A DNA stretch of 64,000 nt from an uncultured Bradyrhizobium sp. (GTDB taxonomy: Bacteria > Pseudomonadota > Alphaproteobacteria > Rhizobiales > Xanthobacteraceae): positions 62,001-126,000 of the forward strand of contig NZ_CANSMR010000022.1 of the NCBI RefSeq assembly GCF_947648125.1, read 5' to 3'. Positions 36,327 to 58,329 of this stretch are shown in pieces (positions within the stretch are counted from its first letter, which is position 1; every line of letters starts with the position of its first letter). The notes beneath the pieces are model-generated. The model was not told where the DNA came from. It saw only the letters and a list, made by a program, of their open reading frames with translations, and did no database searches. The translations under genes were made by a program, and so were the position numbers.

Positions 36327-36383
36327 AGGGCCAGATTCGGACTCATGCATCGCACAAAAACCGGTCTATGTTCGATCACCTCG
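36327..36383 (+). repeat. Island repeat copy 1 (right end only)
   Basis: Starts at GGGCCAGATTCGGACTCATG and runs into a 3' remnant (TTCGATCACCTCGTC) shared with copies 2, 11 and 14. The left half of the element is missing. Confidence 0.55.
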
Positions 36384-36403
36384 TCGATGCCCGCGAGCCC
36401 AGT

Positions 36404-37969
36404 TCATTCGGGCAACCCCGCCTTCCGAAGACCCTCCGTCACCGGCTTCCCGTTTGGTGGCCCGCCCCGGGCGATATACGCAGATATGGTAAAGGCGGGA
36501 TCGAGCTCAAGCACATGCGCCGCCGCCGCACGCGCCTCCGCCTCGCGTCCGAGATGGGCGAAAGCGGATGCGAGACACCGGTAAGCTGTCGAAAAGGAAG
36601 GCTTTAGACGAAGGGCTTTCTTCCCCGCGGCGATAGCCTCGTCAAAGCGACCAAGCTCGATAAAAGCATACCCCATCCCGGCAAACGTCATGTGTAGCCT
36701 CGGGTCTACCGGGCTCATGCGAATGGCACGTTCAAAGCTCCGGACCGCTTCTTCCGACAGCCCCGAATATCTGTAGACGTGGCCTCTACCGTGCCATACG
36801 TCAAATGAATTTGGATTAAGCGTGGCCGCCCGGTCAGCCGTTTCGGTCGCACTTTCACAATCGCCGACCATGAACGCTGAGACTACGGCAGCCCATGCTA
36901 ACGTGCTTGGATCCCCATCGTCGAGGCTCAATGCCAAGCGAGAAAGCCGAACTGCTTCCTTTCTGTCGAATTGAGGATCAGTGGAATAGCCCCAAAGCAC
37001 GTTTCGCATGTGACAGTTACCTGCCAGAGCCGCGACTAGGCCGAAACGAGGGTCCAGCTCCAAAGCGCGATGGGTCAGCCTGATCGCCTCGGCCTCCCCT
37101 TCGCGGGTCGCTAGGTAAATCTGCGGCAGAGCACGGAGATAAAAATCATAGGCGGTGAGGTTCTCCGGTCGCCGCCGCATTGCTACTGCAATTTCTATTT
37201 GAAGCAACTTTGGCTCAATGGCTGAGACAACGGCGACCGTCACTTCGTCCTGGAGAGCGAAAACGTCTGTCAGGTCACGCTCGAACCTGTCCGCCCAAAT
37301 GTGTGCCCCTGTAATCGCATCAATCAATTGCCCTGTAATGCGAACTTTCCCGGCCGCCTTGCGCACGGACCCCTCAAGGACATAGCGGACACCAAGCCTG
37401 CGTCCGACCTCCTTGATATCGACGGATTTGTTTTTGAACGTAAAGCTCGAATTGCGAGCGATCACGAACAGCCATTTGAACCGCGAAAGCGCTGTAGTGA
37501 TCTCGTCCACCATCCCATCCGCAAAATACTCCTGCTCGGGATCGCCGCTCATGTTCTCGAATGGCAATACGGCGATGGACGGCTTATCGGGAAGGGCGGG
37601 TGCGGGATTCGACGATTCCACGTGGCCGTCTGGGGCCAGCACGGCACCAGAAGTCCTTTCCCCTTCGTGCACTGCACCAACGAACCGAAAGCCCCTGCGC
37701 GGCAACGTCTTGATCAGGCGCTGTTCCTCCCCGGAATCGCCGATTGCGCTTCGGGCGACATTCAGCCGGGTCGTCAGTGCTGCATCCGAAACGCTGCGCC
37801 CGTTCCAGACGGCATTGATGAGGTCGTCCTTGCTGACGACGCGGTCCCTGTTGCGGATCAGGTAATCGAGCAGATCGAACACCTGCGGCGCGACGGAGAC
37901 GACGTCCGCCCCGCGATGCAGCTCGCGCCGGTCGGTGTCGAATGCGTACCCCTCGAAGAGATAGCGCAA
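36404..37969 (-). CDS. Winged-helix (OmpR/CadC-type) + TolB-like/TPR protein, copy A
   Basis: 521 residues from a TTG start that has AAGGAG nine bases upstream, giving MRYLFEGYAFD. Residues about 1-95 are an OmpR-type DNA-binding winged helix (VSVAPQVFDLLDYLIRNR, AVWNGRSVSD). A TolB-N-like region follows (IAVLPFENMSGDPEQEYFADG, LGVRYVLEGSVRK, ALQDEV), then about five TPR repeats. There is no membrane helix, unlike CadC. It probably regulates transcription in response to an unknown signal or partner. The first 91 codons and the promoter are practically identical to copy B. The frame continues open upstream, but that part lies in the shared promoter. Confidence 0.82.
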   Translation of the reverse strand: MRYLFEGYAFDTDRRELHRGADVVSVAPQVFDLLDYLIRNRDRVVSKDDLINAVWNGRSVSDAALTTRLNVARSAIGDSGEEQRLIKTLPRRGFRFVGAVHEGERTSGAVLAPDGHVESSNPAPALPDKPSIAVLPFENMSGDPEQEYFADGMVDEITTALSRFKWLFVIARNSSFTFKNKSVDIKEVGRRLGVRYVLEGSVRKAAGKVRITGQLIDAITGAHIWADRFERDLTDVFALQDEVTVAVVSAIEPKLLQIEIAVAMRRRPENLTAYDFYLRALPQIYLATREGEAEAIRLTHRALELDPRFGLVAALAGNCHMRNVLWGYSTDPQFDRKEAVRLSRLALSLDDGDPSTLAWAAVVSAFMVGDCESATETADRAATLNPNSFDVWHGRGHVYRYSGLSEEAVRSFERAIRMSPVDPRLHMTFAGMGYAFIELGRFDEAIAAGKKALRLKPSFSTAYRCLASAFAHLGREAEARAAAAHVLELDPAFTISAYIARGGPPNGKPVTEGLRKAGLPE

Positions 37970-38128
37970 GATGCGAATCTCCTTGGACGCGAGCCCCCCG
38001 ACAACCGGGCTTTGACCTCGCAGGACATCGCAAGAATAAGCTGCCGGTGAGGAAAATGTAAGCTGGCGGTCAAGCGTGCCCACCGACCCCGCGGCACCTT
38101 CGTGCCAGTGGAAAGACACCGTCCCAGG
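37696..38128 (-). repeat. 433-bp near-identical direct repeat, copy A
   Basis: Matches 40211-40643 with one difference by eye (A at 38082 versus G at 40597). It covers about 160 bp of upstream DNA plus codons 1-91 of the winged-helix gene and ends exactly at the domain boundary (LPR). Confidence 0.9.
38033..38061 (-). promoter_or_regulatory. Predicted promoter of winged-helix/TPR gene copy A
   Basis: On the minus strand TTACAT, 17 bases, TATTCT, about 60 bp ahead of the TTG start. The same box precedes copy B and the 48.8-kb paralogue. Confidence 0.55.
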
Positions 38129-38286
38129 GCGACAACGGAAAATGGCAGACTTGCTGCCGCTTGGTAACCCTGAACCAAGTAATGTCGACGAAGACAAATC
38201 TTCATCGAGATTGCTTTGAGGTTCGCGCCCCAAATGTCGCTCGATACATGCCTCTTGGATAATTCACATCACTATGGAGGTAGCCC

Positions 38287-38586
38287 ATGCCGATCGTACA
38301 ATTTACTCGTTTCAAGACCGACAAGCCCGATGAAATGGTCCAGATTGTCAGGCGGGCGAAGAAAATCTTTGAAAAACACGGCGCCGAATTTCTTCGGCTG
38401 TCCCGTTTCCACACTGGCGCGTGGGCAGGAGAGTTGCTGGTTGCGACGCGCTACGCCAGTTGGGAAGTTTACGGCAAAGTGCAGGAGGCCGTGGCAAAGG
38501 ACCCGGAGTTCGCGCAGGTGCAGGCGGAAGGAATGAAAATCTCCGAACTACAGGGCCGCAACATCGCCGTTGGCATCGATCTCTAG
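38287..38586 (+). CDS. Small dimeric alpha-beta barrel-like protein
   Basis: 99 residues, starting MPIVQFTRFKTDKPDEM. The alternation of short strands and helices and the size suggest a ferredoxin-like alpha/beta barrel (EthD/NIPSNAP/antibiotic monooxygenase type), but no catalytic motif is visible and I cannot name the family. GGAGG lies 8 bases before the ATG, and a strong hairpin follows the gene, so it is a well-delimited single-gene unit. It is divergent from winged-helix gene copy A. Confidence 0.75.
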   Translation: MPIVQFTRFKTDKPDEMVQIVRRAKKIFEKHGAEFLRLSRFHTGAWAGELLVATRYASWEVYGKVQEAVAKDPEFAQVQAEGMKISELQGRNIAVGIDL

Positions 38587-38622
38587 TCGGGGCGCCGCCC
38601 AGCGACCCACGTCAAGCGCGGA

Positions 38623-38645
38623 GGCCGCCGGGCATACCGGCGGCC
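38623..38645 (+). terminator. Terminator after the small barrel protein gene
   Basis: A perfect 9-bp stem, GGCCGCCGG with CCGGCGGCC, 5-nt loop, followed by GTTTCAATTT, 37 bp past the stop. Confidence 0.75.
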
Positions 38646-38764
38646 GTTTCAATTTCGATAGATTGCACTCCTGGCTGCGTTACTCTGCGCCCGGCTCCTT
38701 GCCTCACCGCTCCGGAGATCCGATAATCTCGTCATCGACGCAATCACGGTGAATTGGGCTGGTG

Positions 38765-38925
38765 ATGTCGCAGAAGGGGGCAACCGCGTCGTCTTTACGG
38801 TCGGCCAGCTACTTCCGGTCTACCCACAATTTCAGACATGTCGCTGCACTGCGCTAACTGACGCGAGGGGCCACTTCCGGACTCATGCAGCGCAGCAAAC
38901 ACGCTCTGTTCGGTCACCTCGTCGG
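38765..38925 (+). repeat. Island repeat copy 2 (type A) with 3' remnant
   Basis: Begins ATGTCGCAGAAGGGGGCA, contains CAGACATGTCGCTGCACTGC and reaches GGGCCACTTCCGGACTCATG at 38868-38887. It continues into a tail (TTCGGTCACCTCGTCGGCG) matching the 3' end of the ABC substrate-binding gene at 50.86 kb. Confidence 0.75.
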
Positions 38926-38933
38926 CGCGGGCT

Positions 38934-40484
38934 CTATTCTGGTAACCCCGCTTTCCGAAGGCCCTCAATTAGCAGCTTCGCATTTGACAGCCCGCCCCGT
39001 GCGATCCACGCAGATATCGTAAAGGCGGGATCGACCTCAAGCACACGCGCCGCCGCCTCACGCGCCTTAGCATCTCGCCCGAGATGAGCGAAAGCGGACG
39101 CGAGACAGCGGTGAGCTGGTGAGTAGGACGGGTCCTGACGAAGAGCCTTGTTCCCTGCGACGATGGCCTCGTCAAAGCGACCAAGCTCGACCAACGCCGT
39201 CCCCATCGCCGCAAACATCAGGTGCAGCCGCGGGTCTACCGGGCTCATGCGCATGGCGCGTTCAAAGCTCCGGACAGCTTCCTCCGGCAGCCCCGCAATT
39301 CTGTAGACTTGGCCTCTGCTGTTCCATGCGCCGAATGAATTTGGGTTGAGCGCGACCGCCCGGTCGGCCATTTCGATCTCACTTTCACTATCGCCGACCA
39401 TGAACGCCGAGGTTATGGCAGCCGTTGCCAATGTGTCCGGATCACCATCGTCGATACTCAATGCCAGGCGACAAAGCCGAATGGCTTCCTTGCGCTCGAA
39501 TTGCGGATCCATGGCGTAGCCCAAGACGACGTTGAGCATGTGACAGTTGCCCGCCAGCGCTGCGACAAAGCCGAACCGAGGGTCAAGCTCCAAGGCACGG
39601 TGAGCCAGCCTTATCGCCTCCGCTACCCGTACGCGGGTCGTTAGGTAAAACTGCTGCCTCGCGCGGAGAGAAAAATCATACGCGCTGAGATTCTCCGGGC
39701 GCTGCCGCGTGGCCATTGCAATTTCTGTTTGGAGCAATTTTGGCTGAATGGCTGAGACAACAGCGACCGTGACTTCGTCCTGCAGAGCGAAAATGTCGGT
39801 CAAGTCGCGCTCGAACCTGTCCGCCCAAATGTGCGCGCCTGTAACAGCATCGATCAACTGTCCCGTGATGCGAACTTTGCCTGACGCCTTGCGCACCGAC
39901 CCCTCGAGGACATAGCGCACACCAAGCCTGCGCCCGACTTCCTTGACATCGACGACTTTGCCTTTGAACGTAAAGCTCGAATTACGCGCAATCACGAATA
40001 ACCATTTGAAACGCGACAGCGCCGTCGTGATCTCCTCGACCATCCCGTCGGCGAAATATTCCTGTTCGCGGTCGCCGCTCATGTTCTCGAACGGCAGCAC
40101 GGCGATGGAGGGCTTGTCGGGAAGCGCAGGAGCGCTCTCGGGCGGATCGCCGGGATGAGGGCCGGCACCTTCTCGCGCCTCCCGCACCTGTCCGACGAAA
40201 CGGAATCCCTTGCGCGGCAACGTCTTGATCAGGCGCTGTTCCTCCCCGGAATCGCCGATTGCGCTTCGGGCGACATTCAGCCGGGTCGTCAGTGCTGCAT
40301 CCGAAACGCTGCGCCCGTTCCAGACGGCATTGATGAGGTCGTCCTTGCTGACGACGCGGTCCCTGTTGCGGATCAGGTAATCGAGCAGATCGAACACCTG
40401 CGGCGCGACGGAGACGACGTCCGCCCCGCGATGCAGCTCGCGCCGGTCGGTGTCGAATGCGTACCCCTCGAAGAGATAGCGCAA
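38934..40484 (-). CDS. Winged-helix (OmpR/CadC-type) + TolB-like/TPR protein, copy B
   Basis: 516 residues from a TTG start equivalent to that of copy A (AAGGAG nine bases upstream). Domain order is the same: winged helix (1-95), TolB-N-like region, TPR repeats ending EGLRKAGLPE. The first 91 residues are identical to copy A while the TPR part differs at many positions, so both proteins should recognise the same DNA but different partners. The frame is open far upstream through antisense of the DUF1127 gene; this is not used. Its 3' end lies beside repeat copy 2. Confidence 0.82.
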   Translation of the reverse strand: MRYLFEGYAFDTDRRELHRGADVVSVAPQVFDLLDYLIRNRDRVVSKDDLINAVWNGRSVSDAALTTRLNVARSAIGDSGEEQRLIKTLPRKGFRFVGQVREAREGAGPHPGDPPESAPALPDKPSIAVLPFENMSGDREQEYFADGMVEEITTALSRFKWLFVIARNSSFTFKGKVVDVKEVGRRLGVRYVLEGSVRKASGKVRITGQLIDAVTGAHIWADRFERDLTDIFALQDEVTVAVVSAIQPKLLQTEIAMATRQRPENLSAYDFSLRARQQFYLTTRVRVAEAIRLAHRALELDPRFGFVAALAGNCHMLNVVLGYAMDPQFERKEAIRLCRLALSIDDGDPDTLATAAITSAFMVGDSESEIEMADRAVALNPNSFGAWNSRGQVYRIAGLPEEAVRSFERAMRMSPVDPRLHLMFAAMGTALVELGRFDEAIVAGNKALRQDPSYSPAHRCLASAFAHLGRDAKAREAAARVLEVDPAFTISAWIARGGLSNAKLLIEGLRKAGLPE

Positions 40485-40643
40485 GATGCGAATCTCCTTG
40501 GACGCGAGCCCCCCGACAACCGGGCTTTGACCTCGCAGGACATCGCAAGAATAAGCTGCCGGTGAGGAAAATGTAAGCTGGCGGTCAAGCGTGCCCGCCG
40601 ACCCCGCGGCACCTTCGTGCCAGTGGAAAGACACCGTCCCAGG
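40211..40643 (-). repeat. 433-bp near-identical direct repeat, copy B
   Basis: Partner of 37696-38128. Here it ends inside the ribosome site (CAGG of AGGAG) of the divergent DUF1127 gene, which suggests this is the original context and copy A the recipient. Confidence 0.9.
40527..40576. promoter_or_regulatory. Overlapping divergent promoters (copy B and DUF1127)
   Basis: Minus strand: TTACAT at 40576-40571, 17 bases, TATTCT at 40553-40548 for the winged-helix gene. Plus strand: TTGACC at 40527, 17 bases, AATAAG at 40550 for the DUF1127 gene. The two -10 regions overlap, so the genes are likely to compete or be co-regulated. Confidence 0.5.
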
Positions 40644-40653
40644 AGACACCGCA

Positions 40654-40950
40654 ATGAGCACGACACGCGGCACGGCGTGGCAGGAACAGACATCCGTATC
40701 GACCCGGCATATCTCCGGCTTCATTCGGAAATGTTGGGATGCCTTTCTGGAGCGCCGCGAACGCCAGAAATTGCGTACCAACCTGTCCGGCTTGAGTGAC
40801 CAGGAGCTGATGGATATCGGCACTACACGCGGCGAGATCGACTACGTCGCCTCACACCGGGATATTGACCCACGAGGCATCCGATCCGGGGAATGGCTGC
40901 GATACCTGCCAACGGTGGACGGCCAAATTGGACCCATCGACTTCCGATAG
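40654..40950 (+). CDS. DUF1127 protein
   Basis: 98 residues. The DUF1127 helix-turn pattern is in the middle (ERRERQKLRTNLSGLSDQELMDIGTTRGEIDYV) with a 30-residue C-terminal extension (RDIDPRGIRS and onward). Cytoplasmic, with no catalytic residues expected; family members influence RNA turnover and stress adaptation. AGGAG lies 9 bases before the ATG. It is divergent from winged-helix gene copy B with overlapping promoters. Confidence 0.8.
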   Translation: MSTTRGTAWQEQTSVSTRHISGFIRKCWDAFLERRERQKLRTNLSGLSDQELMDIGTTRGEIDYVASHRDIDPRGIRSGEWLRYLPTVDGQIGPIDFR

Positions 40951-41034
40951 GGGGCAAGCGCGTCGTTCTGGGGCACGCCGATCACTTCCGGTTCTATCTT
41001 GTGAACAGACGTAGTCAGGGCCGCTCCGCATGTT
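40945..41034 (+). repeat. Island repeat copy 3 (degenerate)
   Basis: GGGGGCAAGCGCGTCGTTCT at the left, ATCACTTCCGGTTCTA in the middle, GGGCCGCTCCGCATG at the right; clearly related to type A but decayed. Confidence 0.5.
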
Positions 41035-41056
41035 CAAAAATGCAAGAGCCGTCATT

Positions 41057-41851
41057 TCAATGAGTGCGCGCAGCAGGTTTCGACGCTTTGAAGACGTATC
41101 GGTTGGTACTGAAGAAGTATCTTCCTGCTTCGCTCAGGCGCTCGAACTCGCTATGCCACTCGCTGAGATCATCAGCCGAAACGTCTTTCTTGCGCCCAAC
41201 AAAATCTCGAATGCCCCTTGCTAGTCCCTTGCTGTAGCTATCATCATCACATTGCAGGTTGAGGATCGGAAAGATGGTTGCTCCGTCAAATCGAAACCCT
41301 GCATTGACTAACTTGTGTGCCAAGAATCTTGGGAGATGCGGATGAGCACAATGCTCTTCCCATGACTTCATGACCAAGGCCATACGTTCTGGATTTTCGG
41401 AATGCCACACAACGGCGTCCCAATCCGTTGCGACAAAGATCGTTCTGCCGCCCGGCCTCAGAACGCGAAACGTCTCGGACAGAACGCGGTCAACATCAGG
41501 AACGTACTCGGCAACTTGCGTACATACAACGGCATCAAGCGACGCGTCTGCCTGACCTAGATTAGTCGCATCGCCGATGGCATATGAAAGCCACGTTGAA
41601 GCTTTCCGCCGATTGCAGAGGTCTATTAGATCGGTCGAAATATCGATGCCGATGACAGCACCATGACGCCCAACGATCTCTCCCATGCTTTCGCACAGAT
41701 AGCCCGGACCACATCCGATATCCAGAACGCGCTCACCACTGGACAAATCGAGTTGCCGAATTGTCTCCAATCGTTGCGCCACCACGTCTCTCGTGAGATA
41801 GGTCTTTTCGAGTCCTTTTGCGGCTTCCTTAGTGAATTCGAGCTTGCTCAT
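41057..41851 (-). CDS. SAM-dependent methyltransferase (class I)
   Basis: 264 residues. SAM-binding motif I is VLDIGCGPGYLCES; the acidic end of strand 2 is VIGIDIS; the post-motifs DAVVCTQVAEYVPDVDRVL and FRVLRPGGRTIFVATDW place it near UbiE/Methyltransf_11 proteins. The acceptor is unknown. GGAGG precedes the ATG of MSKLEFTKEA; a longer frame of 20 codons is less likely. It is flanked on both sides by island repeats. Confidence 0.82.
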   Translation of the reverse strand: MSKLEFTKEAAKGLEKTYLTRDVVAQRLETIRQLDLSSGERVLDIGCGPGYLCESMGEIVGRHGAVIGIDISTDLIDLCNRRKASTWLSYAIGDATNLGQADASLDAVVCTQVAEYVPDVDRVLSETFRVLRPGGRTIFVATDWDAVVWHSENPERMALVMKSWEEHCAHPHLPRFLAHKLVNAGFRFDGATIFPILNLQCDDDSYSKGLARGIRDFVGRKKDVSADDLSEWHSEFERLSEAGRYFFSTNRYVFKASKPAARTH

Positions 41852-41957
41852 CGTCGCCTCCACCCGGTAGGGCGCATGGAGAATTAGAGCTCGAAAGATA
41901 GGGTAAATCAATGGTCAGCAGGTCACCCGCCGTGTGACCCAAGGCCGGAAGCCGCCG

Positions 41958-42077
41958 GTGTCTGCGTTGGGTCAAATTGAGAAGAACTCATCATGAGCAC
42001 ATGCCTTCCGGGTTACCCCTGAATGCGGGCATCGCCCGGTGCAGTTGGCATGTCTCGAACAGGCCAGAAGCGGAAAT
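41958..42077 (+). repeat. Island repeat copy 4 (type B, degenerate)
   Basis: Left arm GTGTCTGCGTTGGGTCA, right arm GGCCAGAAGCGGAAAT, with GTTGGCATGTCTCGAAC before the right arm as in the other type B copies. Confidence 0.6.
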
Positions 42078-42156
42078 AGTTATGCTGTTAGTTCGCGCCG
42101 AAGGCGATCGACGCGCGCGGGCTGGATCAAGGTCGATCAAGTAACATGCGCGCCGC

Positions 42157-42969
42157 TCACGATTTCCGGCCGCTGCCAAACATGATTTCAACTTCGATCT
42201 CAATGGGTCCGCCTTCGTTGCCGACCTCGCGCCTTATCTCTTCGCGAACGACACGACGCGTCTCCTCCGGCAACGCAACAAAGGCCTCGCCCGCCGATCC
42301 CCAACCGCGCTCGATGTGCTCGAAATAGACTTCAAAGGACGCGTGCGGAAAACGTTGCGAGTGGATCGTGACCTCTAGGTCGGCAAAACCGGCCTGCTCA
42401 AATAGCGCCCGTAACCTGCGTTCATCGCCGAACGAAAAAAGCCGATCGGCGGATGAAACGTACGATGGCACATGCCGCGCGATCGCGAGATGAACGCGCG
42501 TGTTGTAGGAACGCTCAGGTACCGTATTGACCGATACGGCAGCTCGCCCGCCGCCTTTCAGGACGCGATGAAACTCGCTGAGACCGCGGAGAGGATCGGG
42601 AAAGAACATCAAGCCAAGGCTGCACAGGACTGTATCGAAGGTGTCGCTCCGGAAGCTCAGGGCTTGACCGTCTTCGATGACGACGGTTGCGTTTGACGCG
42701 TTGGCAAGGCGTCCCTTCGCTTGTTCGACCATGTCCGGAGAAACGTCGGCTGCTGTGAGGCGACCATCCCGGCCAATGATAGCCAATGCGGCTTCAGCCG
42801 CAAGGCCAGTACCGGTCGCAATGTCCAGAACGGTCTGACCGGCTGCAACACGACCGGCCCGGATCAGGAACGGAATAAAATACGACGAGACGTGAGCAAA
42901 GCCCTGGTCATAACCGGCGGCGGCCGCGCTGCCGTATTGCTTCATTTTCATGTCGCTGACATCGCTCAT
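42157..42969 (-). CDS. SAM-dependent methyltransferase (class I)
   Basis: 270 residues from MSDVSDMKMKQYG. Motif I is VLDIATGTGLAAEAAL, followed by LTAADVSPDMVEQAK and FHRVLKGGGRAAVSV. The overall pattern resembles small-molecule and ubiquinone-type methyltransferases. It is not closely similar to the neighbouring methyltransferase. GAGG lies about 10 bases before the chosen ATG; an ATG three codons earlier lacks spacing. Two copies of a dyad operator about 110-185 bp upstream suggest repression by a TetR-type protein that is not encoded nearby. Confidence 0.8.
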   Translation of the reverse strand: MSDVSDMKMKQYGSAAAAGYDQGFAHVSSYFIPFLIRAGRVAAGQTVLDIATGTGLAAEAALAIIGRDGRLTAADVSPDMVEQAKGRLANASNATVVIEDGQALSFRSDTFDTVLCSLGLMFFPDPLRGLSEFHRVLKGGGRAAVSVNTVPERSYNTRVHLAIARHVPSYVSSADRLFSFGDERRLRALFEQAGFADLEVTIHSQRFPHASFEVYFEHIERGWGSAGEAFVALPEETRRVVREEIRREVGNEGGPIEIEVEIMFGSGRKS

Positions 42970-43080
42970 GGTTGGCATCCTCGATGTGAAGCCAGGTGCC
43001 ATCAGATGACGCGACCGTCCGCGCTCCTGCTCCAATCAGGGGCGGGGCACCGACCGGTCAGAGAGTCGCGCGAGATAGTT

Positions 43081-43154
43081 TGTAAACAGCTCTGTGTACG
43101 AACACTCCGCTCGCAGCGTTCGACTGTCAAGCAAAATGTAGACAGGTCTGTGTA
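43081..43154 (-). promoter_or_regulatory. Twin dyad operators ahead of a methyltransferase gene
   Basis: TGTAAACAGCTCTGTGTA (43081-43098) and TGTAGACAGGTCTGTGTA (43137-43154) are two copies of one imperfect palindrome (ACAG-NN-CTGT core), 56 bp apart. A TTGACA on the minus strand (43130-43125) sits between them. The layout fits a repressor of the TetR class. Confidence 0.6.
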
Positions 43155-43218
43155 GGCGCGTCGAGTAAGTAGATCCGCTACGGCAGCATTGGCATTGGCG
43201 CTGCCTTGGCCCAGGGCA

Positions 43219-43337
43219 ATGTCGGCTTGGGGTCAATCGCGTCGTGTTGCAGTCGGCCAGCTACTTTCGGTCTCCCCTCAACTTCGGACATGCCGCTGCA
43301 CTGCGCCAACTGACGCGATGGGCCAAACTGCGACATT
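43219..43337 (+). repeat. Island repeat copy 5 (type A, nearly complete)
   Basis: Left arm ATGTCGGCTTGGGGTCA, central CGGACATGCCGCTGCACTGC, right arm GATGGGCCAAACTGCGACAT. Confidence 0.8.
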
Positions 43338-43388
43338 CCCTCGTCACGTCGAGGCGACGATCTCTGGATGTAGCCTCCCATAGTCGGA

Positions 43389-43982
43389 CTAGTTACTGCT
43401 GTAGCAATCTTCCTTCCTATATTCGGCGCGAGACATTCTCGGCCAATACTCGTCACGCGACGTACGCATCGGAATGCACTCGGGGTGTTGCGAAGCTGGG
43501 AAAAATTGCAGCGCATGGCCGGGACGTCCGAAATCGAACGCGCCGATGTACTTCCAACCAACGCTTGATGCAAACGGCGAGAGTGTTTTTAACTCCAGTG
43601 TCCGCAGATCAACAACGTAGTCGTCTTCCCCAGGGCTGAGGACGGCAACTTCATGTTGAGGCGTTTCATAAATGCTGTGCCGGGCGTTGTGCAGCCAGTC
43701 GAAGCCGGTGATTTCGCCGCGGACGGAGCCGCGCGGCGTCGAGGCAGTCAGAAAAACGCCGCTCTCCTGCGTCACATCCCAGATCATGTAGAACTCAAGC
43801 TTAATAGTCGCGTTCAGTTCAGAAATTGAGATGCTCGACGAATAAGCAGGAGGGCTAAAGACGACTGAAAGGTAAAGGTAGGTGATAGCGCCGTAAGCGA
43901 GGGCGAACAAAGCAGATGGGGCGGCCAGCAATGCTAGGACCATTCCAATCAGGATGCGCCTTGCGACGCGCGCGATAGCCAT
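43389..43982 (-). CDS. Membrane-anchored protein, unknown function
   Basis: 197 residues. One long hydrophobic stretch (about 10-42: ILIGMVLALLAAPSALFALA and on) anchors a soluble domain with no recognisable motif. Cysteines near the C-terminus (HPECIPM, KEDCYSSN) may form a disulphide. AAGGAC precedes the ATG. Codon use and GC are lower than in the chromosome left of 36 kb, in keeping with an acquired gene. Confidence 0.6.
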   Translation of the reverse strand: MAIARVARRILIGMVLALLAAPSALFALAYGAITYLYLSVVFSPPAYSSSISISELNATIKLEFYMIWDVTQESGVFLTASTPRGSVRGEITGFDWLHNARHSIYETPQHEVAVLSPGEDDYVVDLRTLELKTLSPFASSVGWKYIGAFDFGRPGHALQFFPASQHPECIPMRTSRDEYWPRMSRAEYRKEDCYSSN

Positions 43983-44430
43983 GGGCTGTCCTTCAAGCGA
44001 CCGAGATATTTCGAGCTTACTTGCGCGTTATCTACTTCAATGTTTTACGCGCCCGAATTACGCAAGCGTCGGTTCCAGGACACTTTGGCCGAGATGGTGC
44101 GCCCGTGTGTGGTCTTGTCCGGAGATGTGAGGTTCTGTACGGGGTCTTGGTTCACCGTGCCCGTTTGCTTGCTCGCCAGAACGAGGAAGTCGGCTTTGGG
44201 TCACTCTCGGAAGTCGGCGGCCCTTCCGCCGAAGTCCATTAGTCTCCAGTGAGCAGACATCCGCAGACCTCCCGATGAGGTTCGAAAGGGGCCAGAAGCG
44301 GACTTGGGACCATTTAGCGGAGTGGACCAAGGCCTCTGCAGGCTAAATGGCGATCATAATGTCCGGCGGCCCTCGCGACGGGAGGGGTTCCTTTTCGCTC
44401 GCCGCCGGTGTTTCATCTGCGCGGCGGAGA
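43983..44430. other. 448-bp gap with island repeat copy 6
   Basis: Holds repeat copy 6; short frames here (for example 44040-44252) run through the repeat and look spurious. The kinase-like gene may start 84 bases earlier than chosen, shrinking this gap. Confidence 0.55.
44188..44307 (+). repeat. Island repeat copy 6 (type B)
   Basis: Left arm GAAGTCGGCTTTGGGTCA, central AGCAGACATCCGCAGACC, right arm GGGGCCAGAAGCGGACTTGG. Confidence 0.75.
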
Positions 44431-47424: not shown

Positions 47425-47435
47425 CTCGAGCCTTA

Positions 47436-50384: not shown

Positions 50385-50585
50385 ATGTCATCGATCAACG
50401 ATCACCTACAGCGCGCTTCCACCTTCAAGGCTTCAGTTGATGCATACAATCTTTTCGATAGCCTGCGCACGGCCGGGTTGCTGGAAAAACTGCACGGTGG
50501 TCGAGCGAACAGTGTCTTCAGTTCTTCTGTGAAAGTGCCTAGGCCGGTTCGAGAGCTCTGGGGTAATAAGCCGAACGTCCGCTAG
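50385..50585 (+). CDS. Short ORF, possible small protein or gene remnant
   Basis: 66 codons after a GGAGAG, starting MSSINDHLQRASTF. The last residues (NKPNVR) are encoded by DNA entering repeat copy 10, as in many spurious frames of this region. I see no family. It could be the truncated start of a lost gene downstream of the winged-helix gene. Confidence 0.3.
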   Translation: MSSINDHLQRASTFKASVDAYNLFDSLRTAGLLEKLHGGRANSVFSSSVKVPRPVRELWGNKPNVR

Positions 50586-50702
50586 GTCCGCTTCGGGTCA
50601 AAAACCGCCGTTTTGACCGTCTCGCGATTACTTCCGATCTACCCCGATAAACGGACAATTTCAGCGTCCGTCGGCATGTCTCAAGGGGGCCAGAAGCAGA
50701 CA
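50585..50702 (+). repeat. Island repeat copy 10 (type B)
   Basis: Left arm GGTCCGCTTCGGGTCA, central ATAAACGGACAATTTCAGCG, right arm GGGGGCCAGAAGCAGACA. Confidence 0.75.
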
Positions 50703-50762
50703 CCCGATCCCTAACTAGGCCGTGTACCTATAAACCCGGCGGCGTCATTGTGACTGGCAACT

Positions 50763-50880
50763 ACGTCCGCTTTGCTCCTATAGCGACCAAGTTCGTGCGG
50801 CAGCGCAGTATGTCGCGATGGGCCACGTCCGGACTCATGCATCGCAGCAAATTGCGCGCCTATTCGATCACCTCATCGGC
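50763..50880 (+). repeat. Island repeat copy 11 (right end, joined to a live gene)
   Basis: Contains CGATGGGCCACGTCCGGACT and the CATGCATCGCAGCAAA tail. It then runs directly into the 3' end of the ABC substrate-binding gene, showing what the tails of copies 1, 2 and 14 derive from. Confidence 0.65.
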
Positions 50881-51861: not shown

Positions 51862-52502
51862 GACTGGTCCCCCTGACGCTTAGGTCCGTAGCCTACCACA
51901 TGCTGAATGAGAACGCGTTTTGCACTACAGCAAATTGGGTCGCTCGACTTCCGGAATGGGTCACTAGCCGCCCATGGCGAGCGAACGGGGGACTTCCGGT
52001 TCACCTCGAACAGCCGCCGTTCGCGAATCGTCATGCAGACCGTCAGCTATGGGCCAACAGGCGACATCGCAAGGCCGCAAACTGAAACGCTAAAAGCAAA
52101 AAAGCCCCGCACGATGCCAGGTAGGATGCTGCTGCTCGCCCTCAACGACCACAATGAGGCAGTGTATCTGTCCAAACTCGACAGAAGGGAGAACCCGGGG
52201 GGTGAGCTGTGCAACAAATGTTCGGAGGTCGCCAATGTCCGCTAATGGAATGGGTCCCTTGGCAACAACTTTCTGACGTTTGTGCGGCATTGGTCGGGTG
52301 CGGTCACGTGTCCGCCCTCTCGGTGCGCGATGCTCGGACGCGCAAAAGCGGGCGTGTTGCCGCTATCGGTCTTTGGTGCTCTATTTGCTAGTGCAGCGCG
52401 GATTATCCTTGGCCCGGCTTCCCTGTCTTCCGGAAAGGCTGGAAGCAGGAGAGCTTCTGTAAGGCTCGTGAGCGGTAACGGACGGTTATCGGAGGACGCA
52501 TC
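51862..52502. other. 641-bp gap with island repeat copy 12
   Basis: Repeat copy 12 fills 51940-52070. Beyond it, several frames (for example 51907-52245) have no protein-like sequence. AATGTCCGCTAATGG at 52234 may be a stray repeat end. The ribosome site GGAGGA for the cyclase-hydrolase gene lies at the right edge. Confidence 0.55.
51940..52070 (+). repeat. Island repeat copy 12 (type C)
   Basis: Core 51957-52056 equals 45311-45410 with one mismatch. Right end is CTATGGGCCAACAGGCGACA. Confidence 0.8.
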
Positions 52503-53858
52503 TTGGAGCGCAGGCTTGCAGCAATTCTGGCTGCGGATGTGGCGGGCTACAGCCGTCTCATGGGCATGGACGAGGAAGGCACGCACGCCCAGCTGAAGGG
52601 GCATCTGCAGGCGTTGGTCGATCCAAAAATCGAAGAACATCGGGGCCGTATCGTCAAAAACACCGGAGACGGTATGCTGGTCGAGTTCGCGTCCGTGGTT
52701 GACGCGGTACGATGCGCCGTTGAAGTGCAACGCGGCATGAGCGAGCGGAACGTCGGGGTAAGTGTCGACAAGCGGATCGAGTTTCGCGTTGGCGTCAACC
52801 TCGGCGACATCATGATCGAGGAGAACGATATTTATGGCGATGGCGTGAACATCGCCGCACGGCTTGAGGGGATAGCCGAACCGGGTGGAATCTGCATTTC
52901 GCGCCAGGCACGCGATCACCTGGTCGAAAAACTCGCGTTCACCTGCGAGAAGCTGGGGCTTCGGAACCTCAAGAACATCGCCAAGCCCGTCGAAGTCTAT
53001 TCGGTGAACTTCGATTCCGCCAGCATGACGCAAGAGATCAAATATTGCCGGGCGCCCGATGGGGTGCGCCTTGCCTATGCAACCGTGGGGCAGGGTTTAC
53101 CCTTCGTCAAGGCGGCGAACTGGATGAACCACCTTGAGTACGATTGGGAGAGCCCGATCTGGCATCATTTGCTGGAGGGATTGGCGCGAAATCACACGCT
53201 GGTTCGATACGACGCAAGAGGCAACGGGCTGTCGGATTGGGATGTCGATGAGCTTTCTCTCGAGGCATGGGTCGGCGATTTAGAAACCGTGGTCGATACC
53301 ATTGGGATCGAGCGCTTTCCCCTTCTTGGCGTCTCCCAAGGGTGTGCCATTTCCATTGCTTATGCCGTGCGGCATCCAGAGCGCCTTTCTCACTTGATCC
53401 TGTATGGTGGTTTTGCACTGGGCGGCGGCAAGCGATCACCAGAGGAGCATGAGAAGCGAAAGGCGATGGGAACTTTGATGCGCCTTGGGTGGGGCATGGA
53501 TGATCCGGCGTTCCGGCAAATGTTCACCTCGCAGTTCATTCCCGAGGGCACAAAGGAACAGGCCGATTGGTTCAACGACCTTCAACGGAAGACCACATCA
53601 CCTGAATGCGCGGCTCGCTACTTTGAAGTCTGGGGAAATATCGATGTGCGCGAATTGCTCCAGCAAGTGCAGGTGCCAACGCTTGTCATGCATGCGCGCG
53701 GTGATCTTATGGTCCCGATCGATGCGGGCCGTCAGATGGCGGCCGGGATTCCCGGTGCTCGTTTCATAGCGCTTCCGGGGAGGAATCACCTCTTTCTGAA
53801 GCACGAACCCGCAACTGCTCGGTTTTTCGAGGAGATCAATCTTTTTTTGACTAAGTGA
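52503..53858 (+). CDS. Class III cyclase fused to an alpha/beta hydrolase
   Basis: 451 residues from a TTG start with GGAGGA seven bases upstream. The cyclase domain (1-170) has Asp12 in AADVAGYS, Asp56 in NTGDGMLVEF and GVNIAARLEG. It is followed directly by an alpha/beta hydrolase (about 180-451) with Ser278 in GVSQGC, Asp401 in ARGDLMVP and His429 in GRNHLFL. Both catalytic sets are intact. No membrane segment is present. The fusion suggests that the hydrolase reacts to a small ester-like molecule and sets cyclic-nucleotide output, or the reverse; this is inference. Confidence 0.87.
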   Translation: MERRLAAILAADVAGYSRLMGMDEEGTHAQLKGHLQALVDPKIEEHRGRIVKNTGDGMLVEFASVVDAVRCAVEVQRGMSERNVGVSVDKRIEFRVGVNLGDIMIEENDIYGDGVNIAARLEGIAEPGGICISRQARDHLVEKLAFTCEKLGLRNLKNIAKPVEVYSVNFDSASMTQEIKYCRAPDGVRLAYATVGQGLPFVKAANWMNHLEYDWESPIWHHLLEGLARNHTLVRYDARGNGLSDWDVDELSLEAWVGDLETVVDTIGIERFPLLGVSQGCAISIAYAVRHPERLSHLILYGGFALGGGKRSPEEHEKRKAMGTLMRLGWGMDDPAFRQMFTSQFIPEGTKEQADWFNDLQRKTTSPECAARYFEVWGNIDVRELLQQVQVPTLVMHARGDLMVPIDAGRQMAAGIPGARFIALPGRNHLFLKHEPATARFFEEINLFLTK

Positions 53859-53901
53859 TCCGGGCTGGAGACCCTTACGAAGGGCGTCGATCCGGTAAAG
53901 A

Positions 53902-54024
53902 AATGTCCGGGTTGGGTCATTCGCGTTATTTTGTAGTTGGCCATCTACTTCCGATCTAGCCCCAGTTTCAGACATACCGCTGCACTGCGCCAACTGAAGC
54001 GATGGGCCACCAGCGGAAGTCATT
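53902..54024 (+). repeat. Island repeat copy 13 (type A)
   Basis: Left arm AATGTCCGGGTTGGGTCA, right arm GATGGGCCACCAGCGGAAGT. The core 53914-54009 is nearly identical to copy 9. Confidence 0.85.
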
Positions 54025-54137
54025 CGCGACTTCACTCTATGACTTTGCGCGTCGTGCCTAACAGCGCGCGATCGCGGAAGGCCAGGCCGCTCCTGGGAGC
54101 GGCATTTGAAAAACGGCCCGACAACGCGGACACCCAT

Positions 54138-54827
54138 TCAGCTTTCGGCAACTCGTTGGAGCCCGCCGGGATCGAGCAGGACGGTGGATGCATAGGTGTG
54201 TCGGATCAAACCTTCGCGCTCGAACTCGGCGAAGTAACCGTTCACGGTCTTGCGCGTCAGCCCAACCATTTCAGATAACGCTTCCTGGCTGAGACGCAGC
54301 ATGGGTTTACCACTTTCGTCCTTCTCCCTCGCCAAGCGGATCATTCGGGCGGCGAGCCGCTGGCGAGGTGGCAGCGCAATCGTCTCGGCAAGGAGCTGGA
54401 CCAAATCGCGGGATCTCAGATAGGCCAGCGCTGCTACAGCCTTCCAAATCTGGGGCCGTGTGGTCGCAATTTGCGCGAGAGCCCGGTCTGATGCGAGCAG
54501 AATCAGACTGTTCTCCACGCACCGAACTGTAACCAATCGTGGGCCTCCACCAAATCGCGAAGTCTGACCCATGGCGCCGCCCGCGCCAACCGATCCCAAC
54601 AGGACCTGCCGCTCTCCGGGCGCCTGACACAGGACATGAACCAATCCACGGATGACGATCAGCAAGCCCGTATCTTCGTCTCCTTCCGCGTACGTCCACA
54701 TGCCGGCCTGAAAGTCGACCAACCGCGCATGGGTTAGCAGCGGTTCGATGAGATCAACGCCGTGGTCATGCAACCACTTCTGTCGTCCCAGAACTTCGCG
54801 CGCTCTAGCGAGGTCGAACTTTTCCAT
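54138..54827 (-). CDS. Crp/Fnr-family transcription regulator
   Basis: 229 residues from MEKFDLARAR. N-terminal cyclic-nucleotide-binding-like beta barrel (about 25-135; GLLIVIRGLVHVL) and C-terminal helix-turn-helix (about 155-225; LRLSQEALSEMVGLTRKTVNGYFAEFEREGLI). The FNR cysteines are absent, and the phosphate-binding cassette of CAP is not well conserved (PGERQVLLGSVGAGGAMG), so the effector is uncertain. It is divergent from the TauD-type gene across 85 bp and is the obvious candidate regulator. The frame continues 29 codons upstream into that promoter. Confidence 0.85.
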   Translation of the reverse strand: MEKFDLARAREVLGRQKWLHDHGVDLIEPLLTHARLVDFQAGMWTYAEGDEDTGLLIVIRGLVHVLCQAPGERQVLLGSVGAGGAMGQTSRFGGGPRLVTVRCVENSLILLASDRALAQIATTRPQIWKAVAALAYLRSRDLVQLLAETIALPPRQRLAARMIRLAREKDESGKPMLRLSQEALSEMVGLTRKTVNGYFAEFEREGLIRHTYASTVLLDPGGLQRVAES

Positions 54828-54912
54828 GCCTGATTGTAACAGGAGTGACAGTCTTATGCATCCACTCGGGTATCCTGACCTGGCGAAGTAGCAATACAGG
54901 GAGAAACCCGTC

Positions 54913-55746
54913 ATGGCCTCCGAAGTGCTCGATGTTCGTCCATTGGACCGTTGCGGCGCATCAATCGATGGGATCGATGTGACTTGCGCAACTGATGATC
55001 AGATCGACGCCATTCGCACCGCTATCTTTCAGCGCGGCGTCGTGTTCATCCAAGGCAGGGTTCTCGCGCCCGAGGAACAGATCGCCTTCGCGCGCAGGCT
55101 CGCGCCGATCGTGATCAACCGCTACTTTCCCAAAGCCGAACGCTATCCCGAGATCGCCAAGGTTGAAAAGTCCGAGTCTCAGCGGACGAATATCGGCGGA
55201 GCTTGGCACACCGACCACAGCTACGATGTGGCGCCGTCGATGGGATCGGTCCTTATGGCGGTCAAGACGCCACCCGAGGGCGGCGATACGTTGTTCGCCG
55301 ACCTCTACGCCGCCTATGACGCATTATCCCCTGGTCTCAAGGCCACCTTGCGCACACTCAAGGCCCATCACGTATCGGCTCACGCCTTTGGTGAAGGAGG
55401 TCACTACGCCAAATCCGACCGTCCGGAACTGGGCGGTTTCAAGGATACACCCGAGGCGGTCCATCCGGTCGTCATCACGCACCCCGGCAGCGGCAAGCCC
55501 GTTCTGTACGTCAATCCTGCCTTCACAACCCGCTTTGTCGGCTGGACTCGCGAAGAAAGCATGGCTTTGCTCAGCTATCTTTATCAGCATGCGACGCAGG
55601 ATCGGTTCGTCCGTCGCTTTCAGTGGCGCGCAGGCTCGATGGCCATTTGGGACAATCGCTGCACTTGGCACCATGCGCTCAACGATTACCAGGGCCACCA
55701 CCGCCTGATGCACCGCATTACCCTTGAAGGCGGTCCACTGTCCTGA
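54913..55746 (+). CDS. TauD/TfdA-family 2-oxoglutarate dioxygenase
   Basis: 277 residues. Iron ligands His99 and Asp101 in WHTDHSY and His253 in DNRCTWHHA; the 2-oxoglutarate-binding arginine is Arg268 in HRITLEG. These place it with taurine, alkylsulfatase and 2,4-D dioxygenases. The substrate is unknown. A GGGAGA ribosome site precedes the ATG. No sulfonate transporter is nearby. Control by the divergent Crp-type gene is likely. Confidence 0.88.
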   Translation: MASEVLDVRPLDRCGASIDGIDVTCATDDQIDAIRTAIFQRGVVFIQGRVLAPEEQIAFARRLAPIVINRYFPKAERYPEIAKVEKSESQRTNIGGAWHTDHSYDVAPSMGSVLMAVKTPPEGGDTLFADLYAAYDALSPGLKATLRTLKAHHVSAHAFGEGGHYAKSDRPELGGFKDTPEAVHPVVITHPGSGKPVLYVNPAFTTRFVGWTREESMALLSYLYQHATQDRFVRRFQWRAGSMAIWDNRCTWHHALNDYQGHHRLMHRITLEGGPLS

Positions 55747-55821
55747 AGGCGGACTCCATTTCACCCGGGACCGACAGCGGCGCGTAGCGGATACACGAAA
55801 ACGCCAGGACCCAGGCCAACA

Positions 55822-55950
55822 AGATGTCGCCTTTGGGTCAATCGCGCTACCAACTTCGGACATGTCGCTGCACCGCGCCAACTGACGCTATGGGCCAGAT
55901 TCGGACTCACGCAGCGCACAAAAACAGGTCAATGTTCGATCACCTCGCCG
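55822..55950 (+). repeat. Island repeat copy 14 (type A with internal deletion) and 3' remnant
   Basis: Left arm ATGTCGCCTTTGGGTCA; about 35 bases of the usual left interior are missing. The right arm GGGCCAGATTCGGACTCAC is followed by the tail TTCGATCACCTCGCCGG seen in copies 1, 2 and 11. Confidence 0.7.
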
Positions 55951-55967
55951 GCGGGGCGAGCGCGGGC

Positions 55968-57713
55968 TCATTCGGGCAGCCCCGCTTTCCGAAGGCCCTC
56001 AATCAGCAGCTTCGCGTTTGATTTCCCGCCCCGGGCGATCCACGCTGAGATTGCGAACGTGGGATCGAACTCAAGCAGACGAGCCGCCGCCTCACGGGCC
56101 TCGGCATTACGGCCGAGATGGGCGAAAGCGGACGCGAGACAGCGGTGAGCTGGCGGAAAGGAGGGGTTCTGACGAAGGGCTTTCTTCCCTGCGACGATGG
56201 CCTCGTCAAAGCGACGAAGCTCAATAAAGGCATATCCCATCCCAGCAAACGACCGGTGTAGCAACGGATCAACCGGGCTCATCCGGATGGCGCGTTCAAA
56301 GCTCCGGATTGCTTCCTCCGGCTGCCCCGCAACTCCATAGACCCAGCCTCTATAGGCCCATGCGAGATATGAATTTGGGTTAAGCGCGACCGCGCGGTCA
56401 GCCATTTCAATCTCACTTTCGCTATCGCCGACCATAAACGCCGAGGTCATGGCAGCCGTCGCTAACGTGTCTGGATCACTATCGTCGACGCTCAATGCCA
56501 AGCGAAAAAGCCGGACTGCTTCCTTGCGCTCGAATTGAGGATCGTTGGCATAGCCCAAAACGACGTTGAACATGTGACAGCCACCTGCCAAAGCCGCAAC
56601 AGAGCCGAACCGAGGGTCTAGCTCCAAGGCACGACGAGCGAGCCGGAGCGCTTCGGCTAACCCTTCGCGTGTCGTTAGGTAATTCTGCTGCATAGCTCGG
56701 AGGTAAAAATCATACGCGGTGAGGTTCTCCGGTCCCCGCCGTGCCGCTAATGCGATTTCTGTTTGTAGCAATTTTGGCTGGATGGCTGAGACAACGGCGG
56801 TCGTGACTTCGTCCTGAAGAGCAAAAACGTCTGTCAGGTCGCGCTCGAACCTGTCCGCCCAGATGTGTGCCCCTGTAATCGCATCAACCAACTGCCCTGT
56901 GATGCGAACTTTCCCCGCCGCCTTGCGCACGGACCCCTCAAGGACATAGCGGACGCCAAGCCTTCGTCCGACCTCCTTCACATCGACGGCTTTTCCTTTA
57001 AACGTGAAGCTCGAATTGCGAGCGATCACGAACAACCATTTAAACCTCGACAGCGCCGTCGTGATCTCCTCAACCATCCCGTCCGCGAAATACTCCTGCT
57101 CGGGATCGCCGCTCATGTTCTCGAAGGGCAGCACCGCGATGGAGGGCTTGTCCGGGAGTGGAGGGGCCGCAACCAGCTTCTCGATTGGCGCGCTATGAAG
57201 CTCCGCGCATAAGGCATAAGCGCGGACAGGCTTGGAGATGTTCTTGAGCTGCTGTTCGCCCCGGTCCTCGAAGCCAACGTCCAGCTTGCCCTCGACCTCG
57301 CTGTACACCTTTTCGGAAATTAGGATGCCGCCGGGATCGGCGACCCCTTCTAGCCGGACAGCAATGTTGATCCCATCACCAAAAAGGTCACCATCAGCCC
57401 CGACGATAACCTCCCCGAGATTGACCCCAATGCGCAGATTAAGGGAGCTTCGGCCTGCCGCAATGCTTTGCTGTATCTCCACCGCGCATCGCACCGCAGC
57501 CGACGGACTTGCGAACTCGGCCAACGCGCCGTCACCCGTGGTCTTGATCAGTCGCCCGTCGTGACGGGAGAGGCTGGGCTCGATTACTTCGTGTTTGAGT
57601 CGCTCGAACTCGGCGTAGGTCGCCTCCTCAGCCCGTTGCATCAACGCAGAGTAACCGACCACGTCGGCGGCCAGAATCGCCGCTAATCGCCTTTGAACCC
57701 GCTGCTCGGTCAC
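55968..57713 (-). CDS. Class III cyclase + TolB-like/TPR protein
   Basis: 581 residues from a GTG start with GGAGGGG just upstream (MTEQRVQRRLAAI). Cyclase domain (about 1-175) with Asp17 in AADVVGYS and Asp61 in TTGDGALAEF. The TolB-like/TPR part (about 195-581) is very close to those of winged-helix copies A and B, down to the final EGLRKAGLPE. Thus the same back end carries a cyclase here and a DNA-binding domain there. The cyclase motif NIAVRLEG has Val where the others have Ala. No membrane helix is seen. Confidence 0.85.
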   Translation of the reverse strand: MTEQRVQRRLAAILAADVVGYSALMQRAEEATYAEFERLKHEVIEPSLSRHDGRLIKTTGDGALAEFASPSAAVRCAVEIQQSIAAGRSSLNLRIGVNLGEVIVGADGDLFGDGINIAVRLEGVADPGGILISEKVYSEVEGKLDVGFEDRGEQQLKNISKPVRAYALCAELHSAPIEKLVAAPPLPDKPSIAVLPFENMSGDPEQEYFADGMVEEITTALSRFKWLFVIARNSSFTFKGKAVDVKEVGRRLGVRYVLEGSVRKAAGKVRITGQLVDAITGAHIWADRFERDLTDVFALQDEVTTAVVSAIQPKLLQTEIALAARRGPENLTAYDFYLRAMQQNYLTTREGLAEALRLARRALELDPRFGSVAALAGGCHMFNVVLGYANDPQFERKEAVRLFRLALSVDDSDPDTLATAAMTSAFMVGDSESEIEMADRAVALNPNSYLAWAYRGWVYGVAGQPEEAIRSFERAIRMSPVDPLLHRSFAGMGYAFIELRRFDEAIVAGKKALRQNPSFPPAHRCLASAFAHLGRNAEAREAAARLLEFDPTFAISAWIARGGKSNAKLLIEGLRKAGLPE

Positions 57714-58329
57714 AACCCCTCCGAATGACCAGACTAGCCACGCCGCTGGGACAAGGAGGAGCCTAGCACTTTGTTGCGGACCTGTGAGCGGCGATCGCGG
57801 GAGAGCCCCGTTTGCCCCAAGCGGCATTTGCCGGCCTATGGCAGGGGCTCGTCGCGCTGCGAGATTTGGATCTGGTTCATGTCGGTTTGGGGTCAAAACG
57901 GAAGCTGGCCTGCATGATCGGCGTTTGCTCTGCCCTCGGGATCAGACACTCGCCAGCCCGCTCGGCATGTCCGACAGGGGCCAACTCCGGACATTCTGGG
58001 GAGCCGCTGTCGTCGCCTCCCGACGGACGCCAATCGGGTCGTGGTGGCGCACCACCGAACCGAGCCAAGGGGCGGTCGCTCACGCTGACTTGCTATATTA
58101 GTTGCCCAGAATGAAGCTGCTAAGGCGCGTCAGGTCGCGTATAGTGTAGTTGCCCTTGAAACGGGACAGCCGAAATCGCCGTCCGGGCGAACGATCAGTA
58201 CTGATGCCATCGGCAGGCACGCTCTCTTAACAGACCGACGCTTTTTTCGGTTCGCGCCACCACTCACATTCCACGAAACGCGCGCGCCGCTTCCGCGGCG
58301 GCTCGTCGCGTCACCTTAGGAGAGAGGCG
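57714..58329. other. 616-bp gap with island repeat copy 15
   Basis: Repeat copy 15 at 57879-57995; the rest has no convincing gene. It must hold the promoter of the cupin gene. This is the right limit of the repeat-bearing stretch. Confidence 0.6.
57879..57995 (+). repeat. Island repeat copy 15 (type B)
   Basis: Left arm ATGTCGGTTTGGGGTCA, central GGGATCAGACACTCGCC, right arm GGGGCCAACTCCGGACATT. Confidence 0.75.

Follow-up and report, generated by a model that had tools for sequence, protein, structure and literature searches.

Why do the gaps between the genes of one Bradyrhizobium locus carry copies of a single ~120-bp palindromic repeat that all face the same way? The locus lies in a stretch of 64,000 nucleotides, here called the window (uncultured Bradyrhizobium sp., Xanthobacteraceae; assembly GCF_947648125.1, contig NZ_CANSMR010000022.1, positions 62,001 to 126,000, forward strand). 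We propose, on the evidence of sequence comparison and with a probability of roughly three in four, that the repeats are the joints of a chromosomal gene-cassette array whose units have been moved by site-specific recombination. We observed a defined site anatomy and orientation, homology between genomes that covers single units, unit borders at the site centre, turnover of content at one locus and an insertion sequence (IS) inserting behind the centre. Numbers with G, L and C denote genomes, loci and contigs.

Anatomy and orientation of the sites

A profile model was built from 11 copies, from sequence only, and scanned unfiltered over the full window. At E <= 0.006 it identified 15 places, which lie between 36305 and 57994 and share the + strand. 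The 11 copies used for building the model were nearly full (E <= 4e-18) and the other four were partial (40943-41036, 55850-55907, 50752-50835 and 36305-36343); the best remaining place in the window, at 27424, had an E of 0.12. The initial annotation, which had counted 15 copies in one orientation between 36.3 and 58.0 kb, with inverted repeats at their ends and several interior types, is borne out on these points. The inverted ends are present as stated. The cores at 45311-45410 and 51957-52056 are 99% identical, the interiors of the repeats at 48510 and 53902 are 92% identical, and identity between copies drops beyond GGGTCA and GGGCCA. The repeat at 50718-50836 has a core type apart from the others; over 110 bp it matches a Bradyrhizobium japonicum plasmid at 95.5% identity.

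The ~120-bp repeat reads ATGTCNGCTTN-GGGTCA, a core of ~86 bp and GGGCCA-NNNGCGGACAT, that is, two like-directed sites flanking a core. The site at 36317-36344, where the core is shortened, anchors the array on the left. Of the 15 array genes (36404-60143), ten are encoded on the - strand and the other five on the + strand; one gene has no Pfam match. Since the genes face both ways and the repeats one way, the direction of the repeats is not dictated by the genes.

The site also occurs without a core. This pattern was present in at least 120 stretches from named records, of which 80 (L184-L263), mostly alphaproteobacterial metagenome bins, were used. A site was called if its centre was exact and its arms had no more than three mismatches; each stretch had been picked for holding an exact site, which concerns about half of the sites, while direction and spacing were not selected. 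This gave 163 sites, against 0 in a reversed-sequence control, with the consensus ATGTCCGCTTT-G[GT]G[TC]CA-NAAGCGGACAT, a 28-bp palindrome arranged 11-6-11. Neighbouring sites point alike in 75 of 79 cases, and the gaps between them gather near 46 bp, 90-98 bp and gene length. All 10 pairs that are 80-105 bp apart end in GTGCCA and 9/10 begin with GGGTCA, whereas 52/64 gene-length gaps end in GGGTCA (P 9e-7 for the contrast with core-length gaps). Since the end centre differs with the type of gap, we assign the centre to the upstream module. Both sites of the Bradyrhizobium repeat appear as full 28-bp palindromes in these other alphaproteobacteria and, given the core-length pairs with fixed centres, we read the repeat as a site pair around a core whose inner arms have decayed. 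A chromosomal dif site was not identified in five genomes searched with a dif pattern.

Across the whole genome of the organism (8.57 Mb, 71 contigs), 49 places were found at E <= 0.05, with 150 of 5389 first-look candidates scored, and 45 of the 49 were clustered. The confinement to 22 kb described earlier therefore holds within the window but not genome-wide. An even spread through core regions without a link to gene-content breakpoints, which the initial annotation had named as the contrary pattern, was not seen: the repeats cluster and mark breakpoints. Clusters lie on the + strand on C22 (the window array), C26, C28, C3 and C29 and on the - strand on C16, C9 and C30, and the cluster on C7 is mixed, with three + followed by three -. 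For 33 fetched loci together with the window (picked for clustered matches, plus four single places, with strand ignored; some are adjoining pieces of one array), 143/149 elements lie in the majority direction of their own locus, and 106 of 110 neighbouring elements less than 6 kb apart are alike in direction, at a median gap of 1341 bp. Array direction varies over short distances in G019 and G126, relatives with a single large contig, so replication direction does not explain it. Repeat matches were present in 25/25 genus genomes at E <= 0.001 and, family-wide under stricter filters at E <= 1e-5, in 35/149 genomes and 20/47 genera.

On C29 (L038, 7505-9322), a tRNA-Met (CAT) gene harbours a 1.7-kb island, associated with a 47-bp duplication, that contains a methyltransferase-like gene unit bounded by array-type sites. 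Because the unit lies inside this island with its duplication, the place offers no clean empty-site test.

Gene units, their borders and their turnover

Between the elements of the 33 loci and the window, 96 units formed 78 clusters, and 10 of these had at least two members (minority-strand elements left out, units of 250-4500 bp kept). Shared units mostly have different neighbours in different genomes. In the pair G019 and G023, where units F1 and F7 are retained as neighbours, the intervening core is not the same, the difference extending from GGGTCA to the centre of the right site. When the array was compared with 195 genus genomes, scoring two candidate regions per genome, 136 including its own gave matches (135/194 others), and among the matches listed none from another genome spanned two units. 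BLAST pieces below 250 bp were dropped in comparisons of array loci and of the places described next.

The unit with an APH-fold phosphotransferase gene illustrates the borders. None of its 21 rows among the matches listed extends beyond 44289-45325. Between the window and G011 (92%), homology starts at the GGGCCA centre and stops where TTTGGG[TA]CA ends, and the cores on either side are of different types. The right border is recognisable in 12/22 other places and is followed, by eye, by ~11 differing continuations. The left border is recognisable with its centre in 8/22, the centre being GGGCCA/GGGCCG or GGGTCA, and two left borders are core-less sites, for example ATGTCCGTTCC-GGGTCA-AAGCCGGACTT (L134; L135 alike). 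A 97% match to the hydrolase unit in G208 corresponds to window 47410-48528, from the first base of a centre to one base past the next centre. The array and its flanks are laid out as follows (window positions, strand, feature):

32105..36310, no strand: left flank, syntenic in relatives, with 91-95% identity reaching to 36305-36310 in G135, G085, G058, G065 and G010
33697-36240, +: PAS-GGDEF-EAL gene ending the left flank (Pfam EAL/GGDEF)
36317..36344, +: left anchor site AGGTTCGAGAA-GGGCCA-GATTCGGACTC, core shortened by deletion; core and centre recur in 5/25 other flank-bearing genomes
36334..38766, +: unit 1, winged-helix/TPR gene 36404-38233 (-; Pfam Trans_reg_C, TPR)
38767..38884, +: repeat with left site, core and right site, left arm decayed (72.9 bits)
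38874..40956, +: unit 2, winged-helix/TPR gene 38934-40823 (-), paralogue of that in unit 1
40934..41047, +: repeat, degenerate (31.3 bits)
41042..41974, +: unit 3, methyltransferase 41057-41911 (-)
41958..42077, +: repeat (62.6 bits)
42067..43235, +: unit 4, methyltransferase 42157-43035 (-)
43219..43336, +: repeat (77.5 bits)
43326..44203, +: unit 5, open frame 43389-43982 (-) without Pfam match
44187..44305, +: repeat (61.6 bits)
44289..45317, +: unit 6, from GGGCCA centre to end of GGGTCA centre, APH-fold phosphotransferase 44347-45249 (+); unit family in 22 other places
45301..45421, +: repeat, core 99% identical to 51957-52056 (profile match)
45411..47324, +: unit 7, adenylate/guanylate cyclase-TPR gene 45458-47308 (-)
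47308..47426, +: repeat (78.1 bits)
47410..48528, +: unit 8, alpha/beta hydrolase 47436-48359 (-); 97% identical unit of the same extent in G208
48511..48628, +: repeat (81.8 bits)
48618..50600, +: unit 9, winged-helix/TPR gene 48765-50354 (+)
50584..50703, +: repeat (70.9 bits)
50718..50836, +: repeat of other core type, in tandem to 50584..50703; 95.5% over 110 bp to B. japonicum plasmid pS11L-1
50826..51963, +: unit 10, ABC substrate-binding gene 50860-51861 (-)
51947..52067, +: repeat (63.2 bits)
52057..53919, +: unit 11, cyclase-hydrolase gene 52503-53858 (+)
53903..54020, +: repeat (77.8 bits)
54010..55840, +: unit 12, CRP-like regulator 54138-54914 (-) and TauD dioxygenase 54913-55746 (+)
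55824..55908, +: repeat with internal deletion (30.3 bits; alignment)
55898..57895, +: unit 13, cyclase-TPR gene 55968-57896 (-); many single-unit matches in other genomes
57879..57994, +: repeat (61.4 bits)
57984..60440, +: last unit, beta-lactamase-fold gene 58818-60143 (+)
60441..64000, no strand: right flank, syntenic in relatives; 92-96% identity from 60441-60580 on in 9/11 species regions

Judged by eye, 60402-60429, near the end of the last unit, may be a decayed site. The TPR genes 36404-38233, 38934-40823 and 55968-57896 are paralogous, at about 80-98% in 300-base stretches; their rear part is common and the front is a winged-helix or a cyclase domain. Elsewhere in the window, a long open frame at 33649-35559, antisense to the PAS-GGDEF-EAL gene and without Pfam match, is probably no gene, and a 2020-aa open frame at 11744-17806 (-) is internally self-similar (13.8-15.3 kb).

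The left flank of the array is conserved in 25 other genomes, five of which (G135, G085, G058, G065 and G010) carry the same anchor core behind it, with GGGCCA as its end; these cores are 89-91% identical to that of G135 (pieces of up to 120 bp were left out of the left-flank identity table). The six species, window included, diverge directly after the anchor GGGCCA. Behind it they share only repeat-like pieces of at most 137 bp, except for G010, where further pieces measure 285-370 bp (69-71%); in G135, the 119 bp that come first behind the anchor are 72% like the beginning of window unit 10. In 9/11 species regions the right flank (from 60441-60580) follows 1.2-17 kb further on; it is not reached in G060, and the G155 contig ends earlier. 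When pieces above 200 bp and 70% identity were compared, counterparts of the window array genes were found between the flanks only in G208 (cyclase/TPR type), plus a single piece in G010 (71%). The species regions contain 16 detected elements, all on the + strand as in the window and 15 of them between both flanks. The suggestion that the repeats behave like cassette borders around one- or two-gene units gains support from this turnover between conserved flanks, together with the unit-wise homology and the breakpoints at the centres. The end of the left flank (window 36073-36310) recurs inside the variable region of L336 (G065) and of L344 (G155), and the second copy in G155 stands directly before another element.

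The centre is also a target for an IS91-family unit. In G019, this unit of 2548 bp carries a tyrosine recombinase and an IS91 transposase. The transposase scores 439 bits against a curated cut-off of 125 (NF033538); the recombinase is of the Xer/integron type, with NCBIfam scores of 192.6 bits for XerA and 185.6 bits for integron integrase, both below cut-off. Relatives of the unit occur in 50/146 genus genomes at E <= 1e-100, an IS91-family relative is also present in Ensifer, and the relative ISMno24 of Methylobacterium nodulans has a similar context by eye. Among 27 placed IS left ends, 20 come one base after a centre that matches G[GTA]G[CT]CA exactly (background 0.0015) and one more has one centre mismatch (background 0.0204); outside G019, 12 of 19 are exact and 13 are within one mismatch. 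The eight G019 copies (L075, L079, L080, L094-L097) lie one or two bases behind a GTGCCA/GAGCCA centre. At the other end, in 19/24 cases the IS right end borders on an arm that agrees with GCGGACAT in 5/8 letters or more.

Proposed mechanism and its alternatives

In the mechanism that we propose, the basic unit is a 28-bp site in which two inverted 11-bp arms flank a 6-bp centre, as in a simple tyrosine-recombinase (dif-like) site. A gene cassette would extend from the right arm NNNGCGGACAT of one site to the next left arm and centre, ATGTCNGCTTN-GGGTCA, and the ~86-bp non-coding core would be a second kind of module, bringing its own centre G[GT]GCCA. Cassettes would enter behind a centre, in one direction. 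The exchange would be performed by a tyrosine recombinase, either the host's or one brought by an IS, and would proceed via circular cassettes. Since the centre travels with the upstream module, crossover apparently takes place at the right edge of the centre. One-direction entry behind a centre would leave the sites co-oriented and the genes free to face either way; exchange at that edge would thus account for site direction, the freedom of the genes, the constant centre of each module, the unit borders, the turnover and the IS target.

We rejected a reading of the half repeats at the array ends as a duplicated integration core, since the unit borders place the exchange at the 6-bp centres. 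That the IS-borne recombinase is the general catalyst is disfavoured, as it does not seem to be resident everywhere: in a survey of 31 genomes, 19 of the genus including the present one, it was found in only 4/19 genus genomes at E <= 1e-60. Given this distribution it may, by analogy with the IS1202 family, be a site hunter rather than the resident enzyme.

Several observations weigh against movement by site-specific recombination. With one genome per species, we saw no circular cassette, strain-level gain or loss, or recombination product. Arms are decayed in many copies, so the array is possibly in part fossil. Regarding the enzyme, Pfam recognised no recombinase among the window array genes, all 10 phage-integrase matches of the genome lie on contigs other than C22, and the IS-borne recombinase is missing from 15/19 genus genomes at the same threshold, the copy in the present genome being split. 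Exceptions in direction amount to 4/110 among the 33 loci and the window and 4/79 among the metagenome-bin sites, and the genus genome G108 showed no repeat at E <= 1e-5 in the stricter family search. Units F1 and then F7 adjoin in both G019 and G023, so order is not reshuffled everywhere, and the genes of family F1 face either way with respect to the sites. The border of the APH-fold unit is unrecognisable on the right in 10/22 and on the left in 14/22 places, where the unit is shorter or its surroundings have diverged. Within the fetched loci, the anchor core was not found in the other 20/25 flank-bearing genomes. Finally, 6/27 IS left ends have two or three centre mismatches, and 8/27 IS copies come from one genome, G019.

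It is unlikely that the units are instead rolling-circle passengers of HUH (IS91/ISCR-like) single-strand transposition, with the centre as target. The IS91-family unit does insert behind the centre, with a full transposase above cut-off, and the IS right end CATCCGAAAACC resembles the left arm. However, we noticed no IS ends on the gene units, the IS right end is not followed by a constant four-base sequence, and 96/146 genus genomes had no match to the IS at E <= 1e-100.

It appears quite improbable that dispersed repeats at an island hot spot simply undergo homologous recombination or gene conversion, the site having no enzyme of its own. This reading would fit the exchange of cores between the same neighbouring units (L081/L074) and the hot-spot behaviour of the locus, but borders fall repeatedly at the 6-bp centre, although an arm gives only ~17 bp of homology, and the IS inserts at the centre too.

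The initial annotation had also considered the repeats as non-autonomous mobile elements. As a miniature inverted-repeat transposable element, the 120-bp repeat itself would be mobile, with many insertions between genes, and its inverted ends, size, intergenic place and near-identical core pairs would be in keeping with this. The coherent direction within arrays (106/110 and 75/79) and the composite make-up from two sites and a core speak against it, as do the turnover of gene units and the occurrence between genes of 28-bp sites without a core, and we consider this origin very improbable. The check for a helper transposase that had been advised gave no transposase among the window array genes (Pfam). 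That the repeats are functional RNAs or terminators selected behind genes is scarcely credible: they are intergenic and imperfectly palindromic, but they point one way and the genes both ways, six copies fold at best weakly better than shuffled sequences (z -0.1 to -1.9), and Rfam gave no match at the gathering threshold.

Known systems and biological meaning

Vibrio-type integrons carry attC repeats of ~120 bp with the core sites RYYYAAC ... GTTRRRY. Like integron cassettes, the array has ~120-bp imperfect palindromes in one direction between single genes, an apparent crossover at one edge and an anchor site at one array end. Unlike them, it has no integrase match on its contig C22 (the 10 phage-integrase matches lie elsewhere), and its conserved ends are ATGTC...GGGTCA and GGGCCA...GACAT instead of attC core sites. 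In addition, only arm and centre travel with the unit, rather than the whole repeat, while the core varies, and the genes face both ways and reach about 2 kb. IS91 elements with an extra tyrosine recombinase, such as ISMno24, share with the G019 unit an IS91 transposase above cut-off and a recombinase upstream, but the unit described here inserts at a fixed point behind the centre of a palindromic 28-bp site. To our knowledge, this centre is not a described IS91 target.

Plasmid dif (pdif) modules of Acinetobacter are discrete shuffling modules with varied cargo whose sites have two arms and a 6-bp spacer (PMC13141974), and the IS1202 family comprises insertion sequences that hunt pdif sites (PMC10132070). 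The sites found here likewise have two arms around a 6-bp spacer in ~28 bp (163-site consensus), modular cargo, shuffling and site-hunting insertion sequences. In pdif the XerC and XerD arms are distinct, site orientation alternates between C and D modules and the modules reside on Rep_3 plasmids of one genus, whereas the present sites have like arms and stand as direct repeats (75/79 alike), and arrays also occur on chromosome-size contigs (G019, G126). The centre that belongs to the upstream module and the interspersed non-coding core modules are further differences. Since defining features of dif modules and of integrons are absent, we file the array under neither, though it works like both.

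GTAG/CGTC repetitive extragenic palindromes (REPs) and Br-REP1/Br-REP2 are also intergenic palindromic repeats of the same genus; in the portions of these reports that bear on them, they differ in sequence, are smaller and have no described cassette behaviour (PMC3733652, PMC5082802). A reading of the present repeats as REPs was ranked low.

We are inclined to regard the array as a third natural cassette platform, apart from integrons and Acinetobacter dif modules. Such a platform would probably consist of arrays in Alphaproteobacteria with one-direction loading of one or two genes, a 6-bp spacer bound to the upstream module, spacer modules, and IS91 units that ride on or feed the sites. No earlier description of a gene-shuffling system of this kind was found in the literature, which is no proof of absence; a query with the letters of the site gave, among the matches listed, titles on other subjects.

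Bradyrhizobium and its relatives have large, fast-changing genomes with accessory genes that vary by species, and the accessory genes of this array are of cyclase-TPR, ABC substrate-binding, methyltransferase and hydrolase types. If our proposal is correct, a cassette system common in the genus could account for much of this accessory turnover, its sites could serve annotators as delimiters of accessory genes, and a new directional recombination site would become available.

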